DNA of 64,000 bases, taken from NCBI RefSeq assembly GCF_900102105.1, contig NZ_FNBB01000003.1, forward strand, positions 186,001-250,000, in the 5' to 3' direction. The notes under the pieces were generated by a model. It was not told where the DNA came from and searched no databases. It was given only the letters and a program-made list of their open reading frames with translations. Below are positions 30,284-42,138 of this stretch, one piece after another; within the stretch, counting starts at the first letter, position 1; the number at the start of each line of letters is the position of its first letter. The position numbers and the translations under genes were made by a program. Origin of the DNA: Agrobacterium pusense (GTDB taxonomy: Bacteria; Pseudomonadota; Alphaproteobacteria; Rhizobiales; Rhizobiaceae).

Positions 30284-30329
30284 TTGCGCTGTTTTGGCGA
30301 TGGCATCTACCCGGCATGACCGCTGAAAC

Positions 30330-30356
30330 AAAAAAGCAGGCCGGTGAGCCTGCTTT
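30330..30356 (-). terminator. Terminator of rcdA
   Basis: Stem AAGCAGGC / GCCTGCTT (30334-30341 with 30348-30355) ends in a T-run on the minus strand. It lies 30-55 bases beyond the rcdA stop. Confidence 0.88.
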
Positions 30357-30384
30357 CAAATTGTCCACTCAATGTGGTGTTTTC

Positions 30385-30900
30385 TCAGTTGATCGAGAAA
30401 GCCGTGCGCAGTAGGTTGAGCTGCGCCTGAACGCTGTTCTCATTGTCCGGCACCTTCGCGGCTTCGGAGGGGCGATAGATTTCGCGGTCGAGCAGGGCGA
30501 TGCGGTTCTGGAGACGCAGCGAGCGCTCGATAAGATCGCGGAAGGACTCCGGCAGGTCGTTCCAGCCGGGCGCGTTGCGGTCGACGTTAAAGCTGTCGAG
30601 GCGAACCTTATTCTTCTCGCTCAAAACCTGATCGCGGGTCATTTCACCGTTGTTGACGGCGCGCTGGAGAAGCAGCCAGGAGGCCATCTGCATCAGGCGA
30701 GTCGTGAGGCGCATCGATTCCGCGGCATAAAGCACTGAGGCCATGCGCGGCAAAACTTTCGAGGCGGCCCGGCCGGCGCCGTCGAGATAGCTTGCAGTTT
30801 CCTCCACCAGGGTCATGCCTTCGGTATAGAGGGTCTTGAACTGGTTGGAAGCAGCCGCGCGCCCCGCAAAGCTTATGGTATTTAAAACCTGTTCCGACAT
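30385..30900 (-). CDS. rcdA: RcdA family protease adaptor (DUF1465)
   Basis: RcdA of Caulobacter helps deliver CtrA and other substrates to ClpXP during the cell cycle. The 171-residue helical product matches DUF1465: YTEGMTLVEETASYLDGAGR, VLYAAESMRLTTRLMQMASW, LLLQRAVNNGEMTRDQV and DLIERSLRLQNRIALLDREI. The frame extends to an ATG at 30939, but the ATG at 30900 fits the family start better. The upstream region contains two perfect CtrA-type boxes (31016 and 31186), and its own terminator lies at 30330. The family call rests on remembered motifs. Confidence 0.82.
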   Translation of the reverse strand: MSEQVLNTISFAGRAAASNQFKTLYTEGMTLVEETASYLDGAGRAASKVLPRMASVLYAAESMRLTTRLMQMASWLLLQRAVNNGEMTRDQVLSEKNKVRLDSFNVDRNAPGWNDLPESFRDLIERSLRLQNRIALLDREIYRPSEAAKVPDNENSVQAQLNLLRTAFSIN

Positions 30901-31015
30901 TTCTTTAAATCCCTGCTCACGCACCACACTGTCAGGCAACGACGATCCGGATATTTTGTTCCGGCCTTTAGTGTTTTCAGGATGGTATCTTTACCTGAAA
31001 TGCGCAAGGCAATTA

Positions 31016-31030
31016 TTAAAGAAGGGTTAA
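31016..31030 (-). promoter_or_regulatory. CtrA-type binding box 1 upstream of rcdA
   Basis: TTAA (31016-31019), seven bases, TTAA (31027-31030) is a perfect match to the CtrA consensus TTAA-N7-TTAA. On the minus strand it reads TTAACCCTTCTTTAA. It lies 116 bases before the rcdA start. Confidence 0.7.
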
Positions 31031-31060
31031 TACCCACAGTTTTACCGAAGCCGGCGGCGG

Positions 31061-31087
31061 CAAAAAAAGAGCCGCGAAAGCGGCTCT
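31061..31087 (-). terminator. Terminator of the MFS-DUF1192 operon
   Basis: Stem AGAGCCGC / GCGGCTCT (31068-31075 with 31080-31087) has a GAAA loop. On the minus strand a run of seven T residues follows. It ends the leftward MFS-DUF1192 transcript. Confidence 0.92.
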
Positions 31088-31185
31088 CAAGGTAAAACAG
31101 GGAGAAAAATCAGACCAATTCGCCGAATGGAGAAGATGCCTGAAATCCAGAAGAACTGGATATGTATAGTAATCTCTCAGAAAGC

Positions 31186-31200
31186 TTAATTTTTGGTTAA
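31186..31200 (-). promoter_or_regulatory. CtrA-type binding box 2 upstream of rcdA
   Basis: TTAA (31186-31189), seven bases, TTAA (31197-31200) matches TTAA-N7-TTAA exactly. On the minus strand it reads TTAACCAAAAATTAA. It lies upstream of the terminator at 31061, so if it acts on rcdA it does so from a distance. Confidence 0.55.
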
Positions 31201-31301
31201 TGGTAAACGAAAGACTGACCCAAAACCTCTTGTTTTGGAACGCACGTTGAACCGAGTCTGCCGTTAGGCACGTGCGGGCCGGGTTTATTGGTCACCGCGC
31301 A

Positions 31302-31493
31302 TCAGGATCGGAAAAGATTCTCCGCCGCCTGTCTTCCCGCGGATTTCCGCTTTCTTTCCTCTTCGAGTCGGGTGATCTCGGCCTGGAGAAGCTCGATCCG
31401 GCTGTCCAGTTCGTCCACGGAGAGGAGGCTGAGATCGCTGCCAATCTGGTGTGCAGCGGGTTTTTGCGGGCGGTCGTCGTCAAAGAGGCTCAT
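31302..31493 (-). CDS. DUF1192 family protein
   Basis: The 63-residue product starts MSLFDDDRPQKPAAHQIGSD. It has the DUF1192 core LSVDELDSRIELLQAEITRL, a predicted coiled coil, and a basic tail. Function is unknown. The ATG overlaps the MFS stop as ATGA, so it is translated with the transporter. Confidence 0.88.
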   Translation of the reverse strand: MSLFDDDRPQKPAAHQIGSDLSLLSVDELDSRIELLQAEITRLEEERKRKSAGRQAAENLFRS

Positions 31494-32779
31494 ATGCCTG
31501 CTCCTTTTTCCACGTAGTCCCCATCCTCGCCGGGATATTGCGGCGCGCGCGGGTCAAGCGCAATACTCTCCGGTGTCACCAGCGGCGAAGGCGTCGTCGG
31601 CATCATCGTCGAGAAATTGTCCTTCTCGTCGGTTGAAAGCGCGGCGCGCCTGCGGCTTCTGATAATGGCATAGGCAGTAATCAAAATATGGGCGACGGCT
31701 GTGACCAGAAAAAGCGCATAGGGCCCGGAATAGGTCATGACAGCGCCGCCGAGCGTCGGTCCGATAATGGTGCCGACGCCGTAAAGCAACAGCAACCCGC
31801 CTGAAACCTTGACGAAATCCTCGGACGCCGCAAAGTCGTTGGCGTGCGCCACGGCTATGGGATAGAGCGCATTGGCGGCTGCACCGTAAACGGCGATCAT
31901 CGGAATCAGAACGTAGACGTGATGCGGCTGCACGGCTGCGACCGCAAGTCCCGCGACCGCGCCAAGCCCCGCGAGGCCGGCCAGCACGTAACGACGGTCT
32001 ATCCTGTCCGAAAGGCGACCCGCCGGGAACTGCGCCAATGCGCCGACGAAAATCGTGACGGACACCATGATGGCGATCATGGTCGGATCCAGGCCTGCCC
32101 GGGCACCGAAGACCGCGCCGAGCGTGCCGTAAGCACCGTTGGCGATGCCGATCATCAAAATGCCGACGAAGGAGACCGGGGAGTTGCGATAGAGCGCCGG
32201 CAAATCCAGTTTCACCTTCTGCAAGGGCTGTGGACTGGCCGCCTTTGAAAGCGTTGCCGGCAGAATGGCGATGCAATAAATGATGCCGCAGATCATGAAC
32301 AGCGAGGTATTGCTGATATCTCCCATCGGCACGATCATCTGTCCTGCCACGACGCCCAGAAGCGTGATGGCGATATAGAGCGAAAAGATCATGCCGCGGC
32401 TTTCGTTCGTGGCGCGCTCGTTCAGCCAGCTTTCGATGATCATTGAGGTGCCGGCGGTGCAGAAGCCGGTAAGCGCACGTAGCGTAATCCACCAGACGTC
32501 ATCAACGATGAGACCGGTCATGAGCACGGTCAGGCATACCAATGCGACGAAGGACGCAAAAGCCCGGACATGGCCAGCACGGCGCACGATGGCCGGCGCG
32601 ACAAAACAACCAACAACGAAGCCCGCAGCCCAGGAGGTTCCGAGGAAACCAAGGATCTCGTTGGAGTAACCCTCTGCCGAGCCACGCACTGGCAGCACGA
32701 GGCCCTGAAGACCGTTGCCGAGAAAGAGAAACAGAGTGCTGGATAAAAGAGCGAATACGGGTAGAAGATTTCTGCTCAT
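31490..32779 (-). CDS. MFS transporter, YcaD-like
   Basis: The 429-residue protein has twelve predicted membrane helices and major facilitator motifs: VVGCFVAPAIVRRAGHVRAF after helix 2, RALTGFCTAGTSMIIESWLN, and FPAGRLSDRIDRRYVLAG in the second half. The ESWLN(E)R segment is typical of YcaD-like carriers. The substrate is unknown. The C-terminal cytoplasmic tail of about 50 residues is acidic and Pro-rich. It overlaps the following DUF1192 gene by 4 bases. Confidence 0.88.
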   Translation of the reverse strand: MSRNLLPVFALLSSTLFLFLGNGLQGLVLPVRGSAEGYSNEILGFLGTSWAAGFVVGCFVAPAIVRRAGHVRAFASFVALVCLTVLMTGLIVDDVWWITLRALTGFCTAGTSMIIESWLNERATNESRGMIFSLYIAITLLGVVAGQMIVPMGDISNTSLFMICGIIYCIAILPATLSKAASPQPLQKVKLDLPALYRNSPVSFVGILMIGIANGAYGTLGAVFGARAGLDPTMIAIMVSVTIFVGALAQFPAGRLSDRIDRRYVLAGLAGLGAVAGLAVAAVQPHHVYVLIPMIAVYGAAANALYPIAVAHANDFAASEDFVKVSGGLLLLYGVGTIIGPTLGGAVMTYSGPYALFLVTAVAHILITAYAIIRSRRRAALSTDEKDNFSTMMPTTPSPLVTPESIALDPRAPQYPGEDGDYVEKGAGI

Positions 32780-41910: not shown

Positions 41911-42068
41911 TGCGTTCTGCGCTTCTCGACAGGAACCACAATCCCTGGGGCCATACTCGATCCAAAGGGAGCTGTCCCTGGCCAGTCCCGTGGGGCTGGA
42001 CACACGGTGCCCACCTACTTTTGTAGGCACCCAGGATCGTAAATCTCCATCGGTCGCCGTGGAACGCG
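41911..42068 (+). ncRNA. ssrS: 6S RNA
   Basis: 6S RNA mimics an open promoter and sequesters sigma-70 RNA polymerase in stationary phase. Position between zapA and the folate cyclo-ligase gene matches ssrS. The approximately 158-base sequence can fold into a long rod. The closing stem is GCGTTC (41912-41917) with GAACGC (42062-42067). A middle stem is CGATCC (41958-41963) with GGATCG (42034-42039). The apical stem is CCAG (41982-41985) with CTGG (41996-41999). A CCTAC-TTTT-GTAGG hairpin lies on the 3' side of the central bubble. A TATATC -10 element precedes it at 41900. Ends are approximate. Confidence 0.85.
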
Positions 42069-42138
42069 CTTGAAGTTTCGGGACAATTCCGATGCTTCCC
42101 TGTACCCTCGATATAGTCGACAGTCATTTTTCATAACT

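Follow-up and report, generated by a model that had tools for sequence, protein, structure and literature searches.

A predicted small RNA unit with its own CtrA-type box between a DUF1192 gene and rcdA in Agrobacterium pusense

Introduction

In Caulobacter, CtrA activates rcdA (PMC4433202), and rcdA is listed among the CtrA-bound cell-cycle transcription start sites (PMC4287350). CtrA control of rcdA has been predicted for a group including the Rhizobiales (PMC2877005). Possible CtrA sites are described upstream of atu3742 (rcdA) in agrobacteria, and rcdA orthologues have multiple transcription start sites in three agrobacterial lineages (PMC10469942). In Sinorhizobium meliloti, rcdA is essential and CtrA was found at its promoter by ChIP-seq, but the rcdA transcript did not change significantly upon CtrA depletion (microarray and qPCR or lacZ fusion), and direct regulation of rcdA by CtrA was judged not to be conserved (PMC4433202). 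For Hyphomonas neptunium, rcdA is reported not to be regulated by CtrA (PMC7200025). At full CtrA boxes of Caulobacter promoters the 5' base lies most commonly near −35 where CtrA activates (−39 at podJ P2), and six non-coding RNAs are among the start sites with a CtrA motif (PMC4287350). All these statements follow the cited passages of the papers.

Several small RNAs have been connected with the alphaproteobacterial cell cycle. For CcnA, a non-coding RNA of Caulobacter crescentus, activation by CtrA has been proposed, as has an action through a CCCC loop on the ribosome-binding sites of cell-cycle genes (PMC8959179, in the passages cited). GspR and EcpR1 of S. meliloti, 143 and 101 nt long, act on cell-cycle genes and are encoded between SMc03844 and SMc03845 and beside divK-pleD, respectively; the passages cited from these two papers do not mention a CtrA-driven promoter (PMC5928217, PMC4414408). 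The Rfam family RF02356 (BjrC1505, ‘Alphaproteobacterial sRNA’) is uncharacterised, and in the parts of the literature searched the name BjrC1505 occurs in the table of one paper only. CtrA was not found in the main-text parts searched of sRNA and transcription start site papers on S. meliloti, Rhizobiales and Bradyrhizobium, in which the locus tags used for S. meliloti were guesses. Among the titles and abstracts covered in the open-licence literature, none dealt with a CtrA-controlled sRNA at rcdA.

Here we analyse the spacer upstream of rcdA in a 64 kb stretch of Agrobacterium pusense DNA (the window). As in Caulobacter, and as predicted for Rhizobiales, a CtrA-type box precedes rcdA. Unlike in Caulobacter, the Rhizobiaceae spacer adds a second box and a predicted sRNA unit, and S. 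meliloti rcdA ignores CtrA depletion (PMC4433202, passages cited). We consider it probable that the spacer is organised as two separate transcription units, both with a CtrA-type box of their own: the distal box would drive an sRNA of about 100 nt, and the proximal one would at most modulate rcdA.

Results

Layout of the spacer

An earlier note on this DNA had identified the gene next to the spacer as rcdA and delimited the spacer. Both statements are borne out: the product matches Pfam DUF1465 with 203 bits and the NCBIfam equivalog NF051867 ‘protease adaptor protein RcdA’ with 213 bits (cut-off 170), and the spacer is bounded by the DUF1192 stop codon at 31302-31304 and the rcdA ATG at 30898-30900. 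The features are given below in window coordinates, in the order of minus-strand transcription.

31302-31493, minus strand: DUF1192 small protein gene, upstream of the predicted sRNA (PF06698, 83.7 bits)
30901-31301: spacer between the DUF1192 gene and rcdA, both flanking genes on the minus strand
31186-31200, minus strand: distal CtrA-type box TTAACCAAAAATTAA, exact match, occupying the −35 region of the predicted sRNA promoter
31168-31173, minus strand: predicted −10 of the sRNA promoter, ATTACT (TTA 90-93% conserved)
31062-31161, minus strand: predicted sRNA of about 100 nt, with stem-loops 1 and 2, an unpaired linker and terminator stem-loop 3 (fold and covariation; 5' end predicted)
31089-31109, minus strand: linker UUUUUCUCCCUGUUUUACCUU, unpaired in the fold
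31062-31088, minus strand: intrinsic terminator GAGAGCCGC-TTTC-GCGGCTCTT plus T run, lying between the boxes, with its stem at 31088-31067 and the T run reaching 31062
31016-31030, minus strand: proximal CtrA-type box TTAACCCTTCTTTAA of the rcdA promoter, exact match
31003-31008, minus strand: predicted sigma-70-type −35 of rcdA, CTTGCG, 7 b past the proximal box
30979-30984, minus strand: predicted −10 of rcdA, CATCCT
30385-30900, minus strand: rcdA, protease adaptor RcdA (DUF1465), stop codon included (Pfam and NCBIfam)

At 31490-31493 of the window the DUF1192 start codon overlaps the stop codon of an MFS transporter gene, which suggests translational coupling. A GANTC site, which we take to be the CcrM methylation motif, is present at 31254-31258, about 95 b ahead of the predicted sRNA start.

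The two CtrA-type boxes

A pattern search of the window for TTAA-N7-TTAA returned the two spacer sites, 31016-31030 and 31186-31200, and no third; as the earlier note had stated, both are exact and read TTAACC first on the strand of rcdA (minus). In 100 dinucleotide shuffles of the window the mean was 0.06 sites, and one shuffle had two or more. The match to the CtrA consensus claimed in that note holds for the full palindrome in both boxes, but the final C of the S. meliloti matrix TAA-N7-TTAAC (PMC3616915, passages cited) is absent from both. The host genome (5.28 Mb, 28 contigs) contains 47 sites of the exact pattern versus 49 of the reversed control, which shows no enrichment of the pattern as such. 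With an expectation of about 0.08 pairs of sites no more than 200 b apart in a genome, the sequence alone is only moderate evidence for the ‘notable’ pairing of two boxes within 200 bases, and it is by conservation that the pairing becomes notable.

Conservation was assessed on rcdA-upstream DNA sampled from same-genus, same-family and same-order genomes plus three named records, with shuffle controls that preserve base composition only and with related loci that are not independent. The check in other Rhizobiaceae suggested by the earlier note came out in favour of both boxes. The proximal box is exact in all 37 same-genus loci (the window's own locus, L002, included) and in 45 of the 46 other-genus family loci, as compared with 0.3% of shuffles; the distal box is exact in 36/37 (own included) and in only 31/46 of the same loci. 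A near copy (L032) of the S. meliloti locus L031 was kept outside the 46 family loci. Among the order loci the proximal box is exact in none of nine and agrees in at least seven of eight letters in four.

A terminator and a predicted small RNA between the boxes

The earlier reading had assigned both boxes to rcdA and had missed an intrinsic terminator on the minus strand that separates them. The hairpin has nine pairs, six of them G-C, and is followed by a T run; nearly all loci of relatives have a terminator of the GAGAGCCGC...GCGGCTCTTTTTT type in the corresponding position (none was found in L065 and L066). This terminator should thus stop minus-strand transcripts that begin downstream of the distal box before they reach rcdA.

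Between the distal box and the predicted −10, ATTACT (31173-31168), lie 12 b; the TTA of this −10 is 90-93% conserved among the 31 family loci whose distal box is exact. The −35 region is thus taken up by the box, whose 5' base falls at −39 relative to the predicted start (31161). The pattern of box tail plus −10 matches once in the window, with one mismatch allowed and used. A generic sigma-70 consensus scan of 30300-31600 gave no promoter, which is what one would expect where the box stands in for the −35.

The sequence 31160-31060 folds into three stem-loops (−33.6 kcal/mol, z −4.5), and in four relatives z ranges from −4.2 to −5.2. The unpaired linker UUUUUCUCCCUGUUUUACCUU is, judging from the fold model, likely to be the target-pairing region; its part CTCCCTGTTTTACCT is invariant in 25 aligned sequences. 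No ATG or GTG was found within 31161-31062 in a start codon search, and a coding function of the RNA was rejected on this ground. By sequence, the stretch shows promoter-like elements, a structured RNA, a Rho-independent terminator and no ORF, by which independent sRNAs with intrinsic terminators are recognised, and TTAA-N7-TTAA lies near −35 of the predicted start site, as in definitions of the CtrA regulon.

Relation to RF02356 and other RNAs

In a permissive Rfam scan RF02356 matched at the place of the predicted sRNA with 35.8 bits (E 7.8e-5). The gathering score of this family is 50 bits, and the window-wide scan gave no match at that level at the sRNA place. The sole gathering-level Rfam match in the window is a 6S RNA (RF00013) at 41911-42069, plus strand, with 81.3 bits. 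In the host genome the copy upstream of rcdA is the only significant one for RF02356 (next best 19.4 bits, E 0.59). Among 14 rcdA-upstream loci of relatives, 11 score above the gathering score in cmscan (50.2-106.4 bits), and the other three, L031 (S. meliloti), L045 and L088, gave no match at E<=0.01. A class-wide sample contained RF02356 at E<=0.001 in only 20 of 190 genomes, nine above the cut-off; 14 control genomes, Caulobacter vibrioides among them, had none at E<=0.001.

By sequence comparison, then, we regard the window RNA as a diverged positional and structural homologue of RF02356, but not a formal member by the Rfam cut-off. It shares with the family the position before rcdA, the order of the stem-loops, the CUCCCUG linker and a terminator of the GAGAGCCGC type, and differs in its second stem and linker, with CTGATTTTTCTCCCTGTTTTACC for TTTGACGCCTCCCTGTT. 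About the first third of the RF02356 model aligns upstream of the predicted RNA start, CtrA box included, reaching about 46-48 b beyond it (window 31062-31207, minus strand; L081 369-509). As the model spans the CtrA-type box, its 5' part may be promoter DNA and not RNA.

Other known RNAs are more distant. CcnA is similar in its proposed activation by CtrA, but it is encoded at the replication origin, and no sequence or positional relation to the window RNA is shown. GspR and EcpR1 were ruled out as the identity of the RNA, being encoded at the other loci named above (PMC5928217, PMC4414408, passages cited). MmgR (RF00519, suhB model) has a CUCCCU linker followed by a terminator hairpin as well; the matches to RF00519 are weak (window E 0.032, L084 E 0.0042), both below the gathering score.

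Conservation, covariation and linkage of the RNA

A covariance model, R1, was built from 25 hand-picked Rhizobiaceae loci, including the window's own and L031 (S. meliloti). The L045 sequence entered the R1 alignment with its 5' end cut back to the second SL1 match; L035, L053, L061, L065, L069 and L088 did not match the SL1 expression. R1 recognises a single copy in the host genome (108.7 bits, this copy being in the model; next 18.8) and likewise a single one in each of 104 family genomes out of 121, some of which supplied the model; of the 59 loci scanned, a subset of all loci, 55 match. Of the 17 family genomes without a match, nine are at most 2.6 Mb and eight 3.3-5.1 Mb in size. Four family genomes with a listed rcdA (G103, G107, G140 and G147) have no R1 match at E<=0.001; the loci of two of them, L065 (G103) and L069 (G140), retain an exact proximal box, and L069 has a weak R1 match at the locus level. 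The single family-derived model works across the order with falling scores.

In a plain MAFFT alignment of the 25 sequences only 2 of 19 pairs are changed on both sides, as against 11 of 19 in a model-fitted alignment of 55 sequences. In the latter, which is fitted to the structure and so leans towards it, we counted 46 double-changed cells; shuffles gave 9.7, and 0 of 500 reached the observed number. The share of paired cells is 95.8%, versus 37-48% with the partner slid.

Linkage was scored for 67 listed genomes out of the 104 with an R1 match. RNA and rcdA lie on the same strand, 161-290 b apart, in 65 of these 67. In the remaining two the linkage is lost, with RNA, terminator and promoter box intact: sRNA and rcdA are 4.6 kb apart in G075 and on different contigs in G177. 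The G075 locus (L258, G075:C1:2096600-2102600) has several kilobases of reading frames between sRNA and rcdA, whose translations, read by eye, appear to resemble an AraC-type regulator and a sulfatase. The S. meliloti locus L031 has two boxes in exact form, along with the terminator and the RNA sequence. One S. meliloti record, CP090106.1 (strain Ak57), is titled pSymB; it is 3.7 Mb long and carries tkt, gap, phosphoglycerate kinase and DUF1465 (rcdA) genes, and is therefore probably a chromosome under a wrong label.

Searching named genomes for the RNA core TTTGACGCCTCCCTGTT yielded at least 118 loci. Among the 80 titles listed of these, many belong to Bradyrhizobium, Mesorhizobium, Bosea, Devosia, Roseibium and their kin. 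In the flanks of the 118 listed loci rcdA is found downstream in 103, DUF1192 upstream in 74, either of the two in 109 and a T run in 112. Three loci (L168, L186 and L206) are titled as non-alphaproteobacterial bins, and none of the three has rcdA or DUF1192. From the class-wide RF02356 scan 15 loci were taken, eight of which have rcdA within the flank.

At the RNA promoter, among the matches listed, 106 of 114 RNA-core loci have a box with at least seven of eight letters, and 49 of 114 an exact one; local shuffles reach 1.6%, and the search window for the box was set after inspecting the flanks of these loci. The remaining 4 of the 118 had too little upstream DNA to be counted. Bradyrhizobium loci shown have TTTA-N7-TTAAG at this place, and only 7 of the 15 loci from the class-wide RF02356 scan fit the box expression. 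For the proximal box the corresponding values in the named loci listed are 27/102 exact and 43/102 with at least seven letters (shuffles 0.1% and 3.5%). The box at the RNA is thus the widespread one; the rcdA box is close to fixation among the family loci sampled and has a patchy distribution beyond them.

The promoter of rcdA

Downstream of the proximal box, two further elements are conserved in 45 family loci: CTTGC (95-100%), and a second element with C in 91%, A in 97% and T in at least 80%. From this pattern we infer that CTTGC and CAT..T represent the −35 and −10 of rcdA, that is, a complete promoter of its own. Since rcdA would then have a complete promoter, CtrA at the proximal box could only modulate it.

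Possible targets of the RNA

The linker contains UCUCCCUG. Among 56 start regions scored with the linker in the host genome (54 script-called ORFs of the window among them, one being rcdA itself with a longer start), the rcdA start ranks first with −24.7 kcal/mol. The ctrA mRNA, ranking 16/56, was unsupported as a target. The exact complement ACAGGGAGAA occurs at five places in the genome, one of them the sRNA gene itself; at the other four no clear ribosome-site target was seen.

Pairing with the rcdA start was scored on 85 of 86 loci, leaving out L059, which has no CTCCCTG. At the 5% level it beats the shuffled controls in nearly all of the 37 same-genus loci (35, own included), but in only 9 of 40 family and one of eight order loci. 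CAGGGA, the complement of UCCCUG, is present in the rcdA leader of 27/37 genus loci and 16/22 other-genus loci with the same linker (L032, the near copy of L031, being counted within the 40 and the 22), as compared with 1/83 of the other S. meliloti genes; it is found in 1/24 loci with a GCCTCCCTG linker, and S. meliloti rcdA ranks 45/84 by energy. The homologous leaders are not independent, and shared descent inflates the positive counts. These comparisons are suggestive of pairing with the rcdA ribosome site, mainly within the genus.

Discussion

The most probable reading of the spacer is the one with two units. The distal box would take the −35 place in a promoter for a trans-type sRNA of about 100 nt that ends at the terminator (31062). 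By analogy with Caulobacter promoters of like layout, CtrA bound there would switch the sRNA on, and the sRNA would then act by base pairing of its CUCCCUG linker with mRNAs. At the proximal box, upstream of what appears to be a complete sigma-70-type promoter, CtrA would at most modulate rcdA, so that CtrA occupancy in the spacer may be read out mainly as sRNA. We assign the distal box to the sRNA because the terminator intervenes and because the RNA persists where rcdA lies elsewhere; most likely, then, this box serves a product other than rcdA, contrary to the earlier note.

The boxes could alternatively constitute two CtrA promoters of rcdA, of which the distal one would produce a long leader and read through a leaky terminator. 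Such an arrangement would agree with the multiple start sites and possible upstream CtrA sites in agrobacteria (PMC10469942), with Caulobacter rcdA as a CtrA target (PMC4433202, PMC4287350) and with the adjacency of sRNA unit and rcdA in 65 of the 67 listed genomes. We consider it unlikely in view of the nine-pair hairpin with its T run, kept between the boxes in nearly all relatives, the RNA retained away from rcdA in two genomes, and the cited passages on S. meliloti (PMC4433202) and H. neptunium (PMC7200025), where rcdA does not respond to CtrA depletion and is reportedly not regulated by CtrA, respectively. If one of the multiple start sites in agrobacteria is that of the sRNA, they are expected on the preferred reading as well.

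It is quite improbable that the distal unit is an attenuator leader of rcdA, in which a signal decides between a stop and continuation into the gene. Although the tight synteny, with its 161-290 b spacing to rcdA in the genomes listed, and the structured RNA with a terminal hairpin would suit an attenuator, rcdA has its own conserved −35- and −10-like elements after the terminator, the RNA is kept without an adjacent rcdA in G075, G177, L104 and L107, and the general-purpose single-strand folds revealed no alternative antiterminator fold. We give hardly any credence to functionless chance matches in AT-rich DNA: both positions are conserved far above local shuffles while the N7 spacers vary, which makes chance unlikely, and ChIP-seq places CtrA at the rcdA promoter of S. 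meliloti (PMC4433202, passages cited), even though the genome-wide frequency, no higher than that of the reversed control, speaks for chance.

The two-unit reading has an extension with which it is compatible: the sRNA could pair with the ribosome-binding site of rcdA and repress RcdA, so that CtrA would protect itself. We hold this to be possible but doubtful, given the confinement of the pairing mainly to the genus. We are also sceptical of the more specific proposal that in Rhizobiaceae the sRNA evolved to silence translation of the neighbouring rcdA mRNA, by which CtrA would delay its own degradation. Silencing of rcdA, if true, would make the loop positive, the reverse in sign of the negative one that has been proposed. 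The idea of a CtrA–rcdA feedback loop is not new, CtrA control of rcdA being already in the literature cited above, and in its simple form it fails in two relatives, as S. meliloti rcdA is unresponsive and H. neptunium CtrA reportedly does not regulate the gene (PMC4433202, PMC7200025, passages cited).

What is new is the combination, conserved across the order and part of the class, of a CtrA-type promoter with an RF02356-type sRNA beside rcdA. Also new is the proposal that it explains CtrA binding without an effect on rcdA: a CtrA-driven sRNA in the same spacer would account for the S. meliloti data and give a testable reason for them. The terms ‘sRNA’, ‘small RNA’ and ‘non-coding’ are absent from the main text of PMC4433202. 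A CtrA-driven sRNA would, moreover, link RF02356 to the cell cycle.

At two loci, L104 and L107, the RNA is located beside DUF1192, and rcdA was not found within about 3.1 kb. L152 (titled Sneathiella chinensis) likewise has the RNA beside DUF1192, with no rcdA found in the flanking DNA examined. The association of the RNA with DUF1192 may therefore be older than that with rcdA.
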